NCBI RefSeq assembly: GCF_900105075.1
Contig: NZ_FNSK01000001.1
Location: forward strand, 757,001-821,000
Direction: 5' to 3'
From: Rhodobacter sp. 24-YEA-8
Lineage (GTDB): Bacteria; Pseudomonadota; Alphaproteobacteria; Rhodobacterales; Rhodobacteraceae
DNA length: 64,000 nucleotides
How positions within the stretch are numbered: the first letter of the stretch is position 1; each line of letters begins with the position of its first letter. The notes under the pieces were generated by a model. That model saw only the letters and a program-made list of their open reading frames with translations, did not search any database and was not told the DNA's origin. Shown in pieces: positions 1,380 through 14,134 of the stretch. Position numbers and translations under genes: made by a program.

Positions 1380-1841
1380 TTAAAGCGCCTCTTTCACCGC
1401 CTCCATCGCGACATAGGTCGAGGTCTGCGCCACATGCGGCAGCGCCGAGATCCGTTCGGCCAGCACCCGGCGGTAATCGGCGATATCGGCGGTGCGCACC
1501 TTAAGAAGGTAATCGAAGCGGCTGGCAATCATATGGCATTGCTCAACCTCGGGCACGGTCAGAACGGCGCGGTTGAAGGCCTGGAGCGCCGCCTCGCGTG
1601 TATCGGCCAGCCGCACCTCGACAAAGGCCACATGCGCCAGCCCCATTTTCACCGGGTCGAGAATGGCGCGATACCCCGCAATCACCCCGTCTTCCTCAAG
1701 CCGTTTCATCCGCGCCTGGACCGGGCTTTTCGACAGACCGACCCGGCGCGCAAGTTCCACCGCTGAAACCCGGCCCTCGACGGCCAGAATGCGCAGAATC
1801 GCATGATCAAATCGATCAAGATCAACAAGGGGATTTGGCAT
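1380..1841 (-). CDS. putR: Lrp/AsnC family regulator, probable proline utilisation regulator PutR
   Basis: The 153-residue protein has an AsnC-type winged helix at residues 8-60 (DHAILRILAVEGRVSAVELARRVGLSKSPVQARMKRLEEDG). It is followed by a C-terminal RAM/ligand-binding domain (VAFVEVRL, then VEQCHMIASRFDYLLKVRT). It is divergent from putA with 103 bp between the starts, the arrangement known for PutR in Rhodobacter, where it activates putA in response to proline. PutA here lacks its own DNA-binding domain, so a separate regulator is expected. The name rests on family and position. Confidence 0.9.
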   Translation of the reverse strand: MPNPLVDLDRFDHAILRILAVEGRVSAVELARRVGLSKSPVQARMKRLEEDGVIAGYRAILDPVKMGLAHVAFVEVRLADTREAALQAFNRAVLTVPEVEQCHMIASRFDYLLKVRTADIADYRRVLAERISALPHVAQTSTYVAMEAVKEAL

Positions 1842-11349: not shown

Positions 11350-11793
11350 ATGAAACGTGACAGCCGCCTTTCCTCGGTCCTTCATGCGCTGCTGCATATG
11401 GCAGAACATGACGGGCCCATGACCTCTGAGGCGCTTGGGCTATGCCTCGGCACCAACCCTGTCGTGGTGCGCCGCACCATGGGGCTCTTGCGTGAGGCGG
11501 GGCTGGTTGCTGCCGCACGCGGCCATGCTGGAGGCTGGCGCATCTCGGCAGACCTGGGGCAGGTCAACCTGCGGCAGCTGCACGAAGCGCTTGGCGAGCC
11601 AGCGATCTTTGCCATCGGCAACCGCAACGAGACGCCGGATTGTCTGGTGGAACGGGCGGTGAATGCGGCGCTGGATCACGCGTTCCATGAGGCCGAAGCG
11701 CTGCTGCTGGAGCGGTTCGCAGAGGTTTCACTGGCCGATCTGGCCGAGGATTTCGCGCGCCGTCATGCCGAAAGGCGGGCCGCACAGGAGTAG
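11350..11793 (+). CDS. Rrf2 family transcriptional regulator
   Basis: The 147-residue protein begins with an Rrf2-type winged helix (RLSSVLHALLHMAEHDGPMT, then CLGTNPVVVRRTMGLLREAG and GWRIS). It lacks the three spaced cysteines that bind an Fe-S cluster in IscR or NsrR, so it probably senses something else. In related bacteria this kind of Rrf2 gene commonly sits just before a thioredoxin-reductase-like flavoprotein gene. Here only the first codons of that gene remain, starting 5 bp downstream. Confidence 0.9.
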   Translation: MKRDSRLSSVLHALLHMAEHDGPMTSEALGLCLGTNPVVVRRTMGLLREAGLVAAARGHAGGWRISADLGQVNLRQLHEALGEPAIFAIGNRNETPDCLVERAVNAALDHAFHEAEALLLERFAEVSLADLAEDFARRHAERRAAQE

Positions 11794-11797
11794 AGAC

Positions 11798-11837
11798 ATG
11801 TAGGATGTGATCGTGATCGGGGGCAGTGGTGGCGCAA
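11798..11837 (+). pseudogene. Start of a truncated thioredoxin-reductase-like flavoprotein gene
   Basis: After a spacer with GGAG, an ATG at 11798 is followed by TAG and then codons for DVIVIGGSGGAS. That is the dinucleotide-binding opening of FAD/NAD(P) oxidoreductases (family form M-Y-D-V-I-V-I-G-G-S). The second codon, normally Tyr (TAT/TAC), is TAG, and all homology ends after about 13 codons. The gene was therefore both stopped and cut by the element that follows. Confidence 0.7.
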
Positions 11838-11852
11838 GCGTCAACCAAAACG

Positions 11853-12180
11853 CAAGCAGTCACCCCGAAGGGTTGTGCTTGATTTCCGAACTGAGCGGGA
11901 GCATTGTGTCCGTGGGCGTCGAAACCCGGACTGAGGTATACCCGACTGCCGATTTACACGGCCCTCCGTTGGCGCGGAGGTGTTGGGCGAACGCATCCTT
12001 GGCGGGATGCAGGACGACAGCTTGGCGGCTGTCCGTCGTCCGACAGCTTATGTCGGGACGGGGGCGCCATGCAATACCCTTTCGGGGGAAAAGCGTCCCG
12101 CCTGTCTCTCAGCAGGTTTCGAACGTCCCGGCGCCAGCCTGTCGCTGGCAAAACGGCCGTCGAAAGCCGTCTTCTGAGAG
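11853..12180 (+). ncRNA. Highly structured non-coding RNA or leader with repeated apical loops (unknown class)
   Basis: This stretch has no credible coding sequence but an exceptional series of hairpins. They are 11853-11881 (CAAGCA/TGCTTG, inner CCC-GAA-GGG), 11909-11930 (TCC, GGG-CGTCGAAA-CCC, GGA), 11963-11980 (CCTCCG-TTGGCG-CGGAGG), 11993-12010 (GCATCC-TTGGCG-GGATGC), 12016-12033 (GACAGC-TTGGCG-GCTGTC) and 12040-12056 (CCGACA-GCTTA-TGTCGG). A last domain is closed by CTCTCAG 12106-12112 with CTGAGAG 12174-12180. It contains 12133-12149 (GCCAGC/GCTGGC) and 12153-12170 (ACGGC-CGTCGAAA-GCCGT). Three hairpins share the loop TTGGCG and two share CGTCGAAA, with different stems. The closing stem includes the GAGAG that is the only ribosome binding site candidate for the gene at 12191. 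I recognise no known RNA class; strand is inferred from the downstream genes. Confidence 0.65.
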
Positions 12181-12190
12181 TAAAAACGAT

Positions 12191-12373
12191 ATGACCAAGC
12201 ACGATATGGGGCAGTTCCATCTGCCGCCCGTTCGCCATGACCAGTTGCACGATGATGTTGCCCTTGCGCTGGACGCTATCACAGCGCCGCAGCCGAGCGC
12301 CCGCGAGTTGGCCGAAGCCGCCAGCTACCTGCGCCACGCCCTGCACCTGATCAAATCGGGGGTGGCAGCATGA
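12191..12373 (+). CDS. Small hypothetical protein of inserted element (gene 1)
   Basis: A 60-residue protein starting MTKHDMGQFHLPPVRHDQLH, mostly helical and without cysteines or membrane segments. Its end overlaps the next gene by ATGA (12370-12373), and it is the first of seven tightly coupled small genes. The start is 10 bp after a GAGAG that lies inside the closing stem of the structured RNA, so its translation may depend on that fold. No family is recognised; small proteins of this style are common in alphaproteobacterial prophages and islands. Confidence 0.7.
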   Translation: MTKHDMGQFHLPPVRHDQLHDDVALALDAITAPQPSARELAEAASYLRHALHLIKSGVAA

Positions 12374-12645
12374 TTGCGGATCGTCAAATCTTCGCGGGCC
12401 TTGTTCCTGATGAGCGCGCCAATGATTTCGCCTATACGGTTGCCGCCCTGATCAGGACTGCCCGGATCGCGCTGGAGAGCAGCGATACCGGCGGTACCAG
12501 CGAGGCCGTGAAGCTCGGTAGCATCGCCCTGACACTTGAGGTCGCGGAGGAAATGCAAGCCGTAGTGATAGACGGCACCGAGGAGCATGAACGCGCGCGG
12601 GGCATGGGCTTCTGGACGAAGGAGGCTGGCCATGAAGCGGCGTGA
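12370..12645 (+). CDS. Small hypothetical protein of inserted element (gene 2)
   Basis: A 91-residue protein, largely alpha-helical (ANDFAYTVAALIRTARIALE, then VKLGSIALTLEVAEEMQAVV). It is coupled to the gene before by a 4-bp overlap and overlaps the next by 14 bp. No catalytic motif or known domain is visible. The helical pattern suggests a small dimeric or binding protein, as is common among prophage accessory genes. Confidence 0.7.
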   Translation: MIADRQIFAGLVPDERANDFAYTVAALIRTARIALESSDTGGTSEAVKLGSIALTLEVAEEMQAVVIDGTEEHERARGMGFWTKEAGHEAA

Positions 12646-13372: not shown

Positions 13373-13629
13373 CCGGGGAGGCAGAGGAACTTCCCTGGGA
13401 CGACGAGGACAATGTTCCTGCTACAGCGGCAGGCCGCGCCTCCTATGCTGCCGGGGTTCTGGAGGTCGAAGCGCCGCAGTCCCTGCTGGCCCCCGATGGC
13501 GGTCCATCTTCCGAGATCATGGACTTCTGCCAGAAGACCGGCGTGAGCCTCGACTTCATTTTCTGCGGCGATGTGAAGGGTATGCTCCGGGCTGCATATC
13601 GCCGGGAAAAGGGCGCGGCAACGGCATGA
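13369..13629 (+). CDS. Small prophage-type hypothetical protein (gene 6)
   Basis: An 86-residue protein. The start at 13369 forms an ATGA overlap with the previous stop; an in-frame ATG at 13345 would add eight residues. The C-terminal part, EIMDFCQKTGVSLDFIFCGD followed by VKGMLRAAYRREKG, is like a short conserved segment found in hypothetical proteins of Rhodobacteraceae prophages and islands. It has two cysteines but no clear metal site. Function unknown. Confidence 0.65.
   Translation: MTGEAEELPWDDEDNVPATAAGRASYAAGVLEVEAPQSLLAPDGGPSSEIMDFCQKTGVSLDFIFCGDVKGMLRAAYRREKGAATA

Positions 13630-14059: not shown

Positions 14060-14134
<75 letters not shown>

Follow-up and report, generated by a model that had tools for sequence, protein, structure and literature searches.

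RNase P cuts C4 antisense RNAs out of a longer transcript, and the a' and b' segments of these RNAs bind a target around the ribosome binding site, as described in the accessible parts of two reports (PMC5320573, PMC12197685); the accessible part of the former adds that a 4-base difference in a between phages P1 and P7 is enough to restrict cross-regulation. The phage P1 record lists the C1 operator, promoters, a1, b1, C4 (77 nt), a2, b2, icd and ant1, an order and scale similar to those of the locus described here. Both C4 and c4-a1b1 are listed as motifs, the latter from gammaproteobacteria and phages, in the accessible part of a further source (PMC2864571), and phage P1 scores 68.8 bits with the Rfam C4 model and 51 bits with that of c4-a1b1. 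The sRNA-Xcc1 family of Xanthomonas integron cassettes is treated as a trans-acting sRNA and found 5' of symE in the portions of the literature available; one paper names both families and, in its available portion, sets sRNA-Xcc1 and C4 side by side without joining them.

We analyzed a 64,000-nucleotide stretch of Rhodobacter sp. 24-YEA-8 (the window), of which positions 11853 to 12180 had been described in an initial annotation as a structured RNA with three hairpins sharing the loop TTGGCG, two identical octaloops and a three-way junction closed by CTCTCAG/CTGAGAG, in a layout assigned to no RNA class. The hairpins, the octaloops and both heptamers (12106-12112 and 12174-12180) are all present, but the layout does have a counterpart: it is that of a C4 antisense locus, and its 3' half matches the Rfam family sRNA-Xcc1. 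We are highly confident that these positions form an antisense RNA locus of the C4 type, carried by a phage or by an island of phage origin. This judgment covers the C4-type reading and not the role of the hairpins. The features are as follows.

11853..11881, + strand: palindrome CAAGC...CACCCCGAAGGGTTG...GCTTG, 5' of the RNA; an operator or hairpin, judged from sequence
11909..11930, + strand: a1 hairpin, with a1 = GTCGAAA at 11918-11924
11917-11924 and 12158-12165, + strand: the two copies of the octaloop CGTCGAAA, containing a1 and a2
11931..11935, + strand: b1 = CTGAG, complement of b' (k = 5 match in the window)
11963-11980, + strand: TTGGCG hairpin 1, CCTCCG-TTGGCG-CGGAGG
11993-12010, + strand: TTGGCG hairpin 2, GCATCC-TTGGCG-GGATGC
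12016-12033, + strand: TTGGCG hairpin 3, GACAGC-TTGGCG-GCTGTC
12048..12052, + strand: TTAT/G, predicted RNase P cut and C4 5' end, by analogy with phage P1
12052..12132, + strand: C4-type core, a predicted three-helix junction (Rfam match, covariation, model R2, local fold)
12052-12058 with 12126-12132, + strand: C4 helix P1
12101-12104 with 12113-12116, + strand: C4 helix P3
12106..12112, + strand: b' = CTCTCAG, loop of helix P3
12117..12122, + strand: a' = TTTCGA
12133..12149, + strand: linker hairpin GCCAGC-CTGTC-GCTGGC, between C4 and a2
12153..12170, + strand: a2 hairpin, with a2 = GTCGAAA at 12159-12165
12174..12180, + strand: b2 = CTGAGAG, ten bases 5' of the start codon, where the ribosome binding site is expected
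12191..12373, + strand: first gene of the operon presumed to be under control; encodes 60 aa, without a convincing family

As read from these features, the locus runs from a1-b1 through three UUGGCG hairpins to the C4 RNA, a2-b2 and the start of the first gene; hairpins aside, the C4 class has its parts in the same order. Both a copies and both b copies in the window are complementary to a single arm consisting of CTCTCAG (b') and TTTCGA (a'). The identity of the two CGTCGAAA octaloops can thus be attributed to their shared complement and not to a shared binding protein. A scan for a sigma-70 consensus promoter found none at the locus. By eye, palindromes like that at 11853..11881 are present in many relatives, some of them centred on TTGGCG; one promoter-side palindrome, ACCCCGAAGGGTTGTGCTTGATT, also lies without C4 at 1501-1523 (- strand) of L006 in genome G012, where its neighbours, again by eye, are a terminator-like hairpin, a tRNA-like sequence and a preceding GC-rich, hairpin-rich stretch. 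Three loci (L342 at 2640-2715, L227 and L301) have tandem a2 copies 3' of C4 on two different hairpins, so that the a word is present three times in all. The linker between C4 and a2 forms a hairpin with a YCYGUCA-like loop in many loci, and the loose word YCYGNN occurs in 46 of 52 linkers.

For comparison, 79 named loci were carried forward. L134 and L136 were added by hand; L055 and L120, which we judged unlike C4, were left out, as were duplicates of the window and L005. Our script left L136 and L217 unplaced, giving 77 parsed loci; removal of L216, L325, L335, L339, L349 and L355, which failed the a1/a'/a2 test (some lie near a contig edge), gave 71, among which L134 stayed despite failing it too, and removal of redundancy gave 59. 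Of these 59, 31 lie on viral contigs, 22 on named genome contigs and 6 on further genome stretches. An exact-match parser placed no second a copy in seven of them, and the b and duplex tests were run on the other 52; register was the criterion by which 22 of the 59 cores were picked for covariance model R2. Where a search spanned more than 40 genomes the filters were stricter, and the RF02221 and R2 counts below are therefore lower bounds.

In 70 of the 77 parsed loci, six bases of a1 were followed by their reverse complement and then by a repeat of the same six bases, whereas swapping a1 between loci gave this ordered relation in only 407 of 5502 trials. The corresponding b relation held at 6 bases in 38 of the 52 loci with both copies placed, compared with 135/2588 in the control. 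The letters themselves vary from locus to locus: a1/a'/a2 read CTCAAAA/TTTTGAG/CTCAAAA in L133, GTCAGAA/TTCTGAA/GTCAGAA in L135, GTGAGAA/TTCTCAC/GTGAGAA in L136 and GTGACAA/TTGTCAA/TGACAA in L137, while a' and b' stay complementary to both target copies, over only 5 bases in the case of the window's b1. The predicted C4:a1b1 duplex was equaled by at most one of 60 shuffled targets in 46 of 52 loci and the predicted C4:a2b2 duplex in 33 of 52; taken alone, the window gave a weaker signal, its scores being only moderately better than those of shuffles (5/300 and 11/300 as good). Genome G012, of the same genus as the window, carries two such islands, L003 and L005, and the a sequences of its two loci, GTCGAAA and GTGACAG, differ. 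L003 reaches 87% identity over 521 bases; by eye, one pair of its hairpin 1 is broken and its third loop reads CTGGCG. L005 has different stems throughout, three unchanged loops and a different a sequence. Differing a/b sequences are a suggested reason why one genome holds several compatible copies.

We observed that Rfam RF02221 (sRNA-Xcc1) matches 12052-12140 on the + strand at 55.5 bits, against a cut-off of 53, a score that admits the window's C4 core to the family; with E values up to 1, the + strand of 11700-12450 had no further Rfam family listed. At the same limit, the window was not listed for RF01695 (C4, cut-off 45 bits), RF03163 (c4-a1b1, cut-off 46.7 bits) or isrK, and the best RF01695 match in the window's own genome, at another place, reached 17.9 bits. 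With no RF01695 match, the window is therefore not filed under RF01695. The idea that no known Rfam family applies thus fell for the 3' half and stood for the TTGGCG hairpins, which lie outside RF02221. Among the full-layout loci of named genomes, 1 of 17 (L258) reaches an Rfam cut-off for this RNA, and that family is sRNA-Xcc1.

The helices of the C4 core covary. Across 22 sequences including the window, 87.8% of the cells were paired compared with 75.1% after shuffling, and 63 double changes were counted compared with 26.6; no shuffle was as high in either paired cells or double changes, and two other covariation measures were reached by 5/500 and 8/500 shuffles. Model R2 scores the window at 82.5 bits, the window itself being in the model. 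A TATG occurs in the 8 bases that precede the CGGG of the C4 helix in 44 of 59 loci. Helix P2 has a conserved internal loop, GTCCA...AAA (GUCCA...AAA in RNA) in 46 of the 59 cores and ATRCAA (AURCAA in RNA) in the remaining 13, and by these letters there are two sub-types of alphaproteobacterial C4.

The RNA stretch as a whole folds better than shuffled sequence (z -2.70, 0/100), but only the first of the three hairpins appears in the full-length minimum-energy fold, with hairpins 2 and 3 at a pair probability of ~0.22. This fold is dominated by long-range pairing that captures C4, and the three-helix C4 fold, supported by covariation and by local folding, is absent from it. Folded alone, the piece 11945-12050 forms all three hairpins and the piece 12040-12190 forms the three-helix junction. 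Closure of a junction by CTCTCAG and CTGAGAG has a probability of ~0.01 in the full-length fold, and the two heptamers are better read as the b'/b2 antisense-target pair.

The interval between b1 and C4 is occupied by TTGGCG hairpins in the loci examined, three in 43 of the 59 non-redundant loci, two in 15 and four in one, and the spacing between them varies. TTGGCG in array position has a stem of at least 4 pairs in 156 of 163 instances, in loci that had been selected for two hairpins, compared with 6 of 249 instances at other places on that strand of these loci. Where a locus has three or more hairpins, the last of them, whose stem was not a selection criterion, was assessed in 44 loci with 38 distinct sequences: 96.8% of its cells were paired (shuffled mean 58%; 0/500 shuffles as high), with 62 double changes compared with 18.6 in shuffles, and double changes fell at all five pairs, which 26/500 shuffles also reached. 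Identical loops on non-identical stems had been put forward as a pattern beyond chance, and these counts bear this out; covariation is seen in the last-hairpin stems as well as in the C4 helices. A survey of 3.06 Mb outside the loci gave 299 hairpins with a hexaloop on a stem of 7 or more Watson-Crick pairs; the loop was TTGGCG in none and its reverse complement in one, a limited test because most array stems are shorter (4 to 6 pairs). A generic stable loop was rejected on the same absence from long stems, at least 7 pairs in a survey where most array stems fall below that length.

A viral scan blind to C4 returned 88 stretches, of which 87 were analyzed. In 26 of these, both stems had at least 5 pairs: the C4 motif lay next in 20, five were coding repeats inside open frames with a spacing that is a multiple of 3, and one, L339, met the contig end 24 bases on. 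The 61 other stretches, with a shorter stem, included 2 with the C4 motif and 55 with a spacing that is a multiple of 3. We therefore rejected an array that exists independently of C4, the long-stem viral pairs occurring only with C4, bar the five coding repeats and L339. A first viral pattern of three TTGGCG yielded no stretch with three hairpins among the matches listed.

Since both pattern searches required TTGGCG, the frequency of the array must come from searches that did not. In the window's family, the RF02221 search gave at least two TTGGCG in 6 of 8 loci and none in L138 and L139, and the R2 search gave an array in 4 of 10 loci, from genomes partly shared with the RF02221 search. In the class, R2 matched at least 37 of 385 genomes, with an array in 2 of 30 listed loci. 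The array is found in only some of these loci and therefore marks a sub-type: within Alphaproteobacteria, one kind of C4 locus conserves tandem UUGGCG hairpins as a module, and others manage without them. Among the matches listed in the literature on hexaloops, on alphaproteobacterial C4 and on sRNA-Xcc1 with C4, a body from which subscription journals are largely absent, we found no published description of the array.

The initial annotation had also suggested that CGCCA could pair with the TTGGCG loops. In 35 of the 59 loci, compared with 13.6 in shuffles, CGCCA lies in the interval from the last hairpin to a2, and this enrichment favors such pairing. However, L005, L190 and L137 are among loci that have CGTGC, CGTTC or CGAAA there and keep the TTGGCG loop, and in L388, returned by the class search, two hairpin loops read TTGCCG, as if changed together, yet CGCCA is still present (by eye). 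The common CGCCA site falls in the conserved C4 helix P2, and we consider the pairing weak and do not uphold it.

All 22 named contigs bear alphaproteobacterial names, though the pattern also matched many other bacteria (among the matches listed); we take the named array carriers to belong to Rhodobacterales, Hyphomicrobiales and Sphingomonadales, with one MAG labelled Rhodospirillales. L135, from the window's family, is identical in the compared region to L194 of Pseudaestuariivita rosea. Several relatives lie in phage DNA: L301, on a viral contig, is flanked by a tape-measure gene and an integrase gene; L342 is followed on its viral contig by a small gene, an integrase and a major head protein; and L303, also viral, has a terminase gene ~5 kb off and a first gene that is weakly excisionase-like (E 4.7e-5). 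The initial view of an RNA under selection, phage-borne in relatives and probably regulatory, is supported. Neither the RNA described here nor those of its relatives matched a phage or plasmid record by blastn, and L004 (G032) was dropped as a relative, looking like a chance 50-base match.

In the window, small open reading frames continue 3' of the gene at 12191 as far as 13895. The one at 13626 encodes a helix-turn-helix domain (41 bits, cut-off 27), and no convincing family was found for the six others tried. The DNA behind L005 is 86% identical to the first open reading frame (183 bases), with 11 gap bases that shift the frame. Across loci, 17 of the 59 first genes encode a small, often acidic protein that matches a loose SIERLIDLLDALDGDPDLE-like helix expression; none of seven first-gene proteins tried reached a Pfam curated cut-off. 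At 11800-11840, after a regulator-like gene, a flavoprotein-like frame starts (with DVIVIGGSGG, which we take to be a flavoprotein-like motif) and is broken off about where similarity to L005 begins, and this is for that reason likely the left edge of an inserted island. A tRNA-Thr lies at 14060-14134 (- strand), near the right-hand limit of the small-gene island; the window showed no direct repeat of at least 12 bases, and the tRNA was set aside as an attachment site. Eight tRNA matches were seen in 7 of the relatives' 17 8-kb loci. The next longer open reading frames beyond the island presumably are ordinary chromosomal genes, which they resemble; with so short an island and chromosomal-looking neighbors, the locus may be a remnant and inactive.

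How an intact locus would work can be modeled on P1 and P7. The + strand transcript would be the leader of a small-gene operon that begins at 12191. We infer that RNase P would cut this leader before 12052 to free C4, which would then pair through a' and b' with a2-b2 and block translation of the first gene at 12191; a1-b1 would be a second target on the same transcript. By the same analogy, C4 would silence the operon in a lysogen and act against incoming phages whose a/b type matches, and would so have a role in immunity.

The role of the UUGGCG hairpins is a separate matter, and the protein-binding and antitermination roles raised by the initial annotation both stay among the readings weighed here. 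Our leading guess, held tentatively, is that the hairpins offer several docking sites for a phage or host RNA-binding protein that would gate leader transcription, C4 synthesis or C4 processing. One loop on freely varying stems, in two to four copies at variable spacing, is what such docking would leave, and both the absence of TTGGCG from the 299 long-stem hairpins (a limited test) and the two TTGCCG loops of L388 (by eye) agree with it. However, there is no protein candidate; by eye, several loci have a loop other than TTGGCG on the hairpin next to b1, as the upstream palindrome usually does; and since the loci were mostly found by the TTGGCG pattern, the first two loops are constant in part because of that selection. 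Our next guess, possible but on the doubtful side, is a rigid, fast-folding spacer that keeps a1-b1 off nascent C4, with UUGGCG merely a stable loop. The hairpins do lie between b1 and C4, and some separation would be useful since the full-length fold captures C4 by long-range pairing; other alphaproteobacterial C4 loci dispense with them, in keeping with a spacer, but a mere spacer would have no need of one constant loop, and elsewhere in the DNA examined no long stem was seen to carry TTGGCG as its loop.

The same long-range pairing could instead point to a cis switch without a separate antisense RNA, in which the central arm would pair with either the 5' or the 3' copy, as mutually exclusive partners, and open or close the start site. 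We consider this improbable: sRNA-Xcc1 is a discrete RNA of ~100 nt on Northern blots, mapped to 88 nt (accessible part of PMC2996969), Acinetobacter C4-like RNAs appear to be processed from longer transcripts (accessible part of PMC5320573), and 44 of 59 loci retain TATG ahead of the C4 helix. Slightly less probable still is an ANTAR-type antitermination element, in which a NasT-like protein would bind a dual hexaloop and polymerase would read into the operon. The hexaloops stand in tandem, their stems vary freely and their fourth base is G, all of which recalls such elements; in the accessible part of PMC8934654, that G is the base-specific contact in EutV and the ANTAR rule is A1 plus G4. 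NasT is known in Paracoccus and Bradyrhizobium, as far as the available excerpts go, and the window's own genome has three ANTAR matches. However, loop position 1 is U and not the conserved A, a scan of 11700-12450 found no terminator-like hairpin, and ANTAR matches occur in 4 of 8 array-carrying genomes (the window's own included) and in 6 of 12 genomes searched. Of the readings weighed for the hairpins, we retain protein docking and a spacer.

The sRNA-Xcc1 family itself also takes on a different look. RF02221 matches at least 8 of 295 genomes of the window's family and at least 51 of 299 of its phylum. Outside the family, 30 loci were returned (one of them, L153, from the window's class) and 26 were placed; a1/a'/a2 was found at 6 bases in 15 of these 26, compared with 57/650 for swapped partners, and at 7 bases in 7 of 26, compared with 18/650. 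No TTGGCG hairpin array was seen in the 30 loci, among the matches listed. These relations suggest that sRNA-Xcc1 is a C4-type locus, which would tie an integron and island sRNA family to phage C4 loci and predicts that its real target is the gene directly 3'. A largely unannotated RNA of alphaproteobacterial phages is hereby placed in a class with a worked-out mechanism. One genome, G602, has nine sRNA-Xcc1 matches and two RF01695 C4 matches of at least 66 bits. As a speculation that is rather unlikely to hold in full, we propose that alphaproteobacterial phages share a distinct C4 clade whose multivalent UUGGCG array recruits a specific RNA-binding protein, making a protein-sensing switch, and that sRNA-Xcc1 is of the same cis-encoded phage class. 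If true, an RNA-only immunity switch would have been turned into one that senses a host or phage protein.

Among known systems, the ANTAR dual-hexaloop RNA shares tandem hexaloops and G4 with the window, which has U1 in place of A1 and no terminator found. IsrK/orf45/anrP of Gifsy-1 is, in the available part of its description, also a prophage leader RNA that controls an antirepressor operon, and the isrK model matches the a1-b1 part of phage P1 at 35.1 bits, under its cut-off of 50. Compared with the immI region of P1 and P7, no icd or ant antirepressor gene was recognized among seven open reading frames of the window, and the window's C4 is below the reach of the RF01695 and RF03163 models. 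Alphaproteobacterial C4 differs from that of P1 and P7 by the conserved internal loop in helix P2, and P1 and many loci of other classes have a hairpin and a T run where the window has its UUGGCG hairpins (by eye, among the matches listed). The likenesses are duplicated targets, a b' loop and an a' strand in a three-helix RNA, and a b2 that adjoins the start codon. P1 C4 is annotated to start after TTAT, just as TTAT precedes G at 12048-12052, and the palindrome at 11853..11881 is placed like the P1 C1 operator Oc4, which overlaps the c4 promoter. An RF01695 locus of another genome, inspected by eye, has the same layout.
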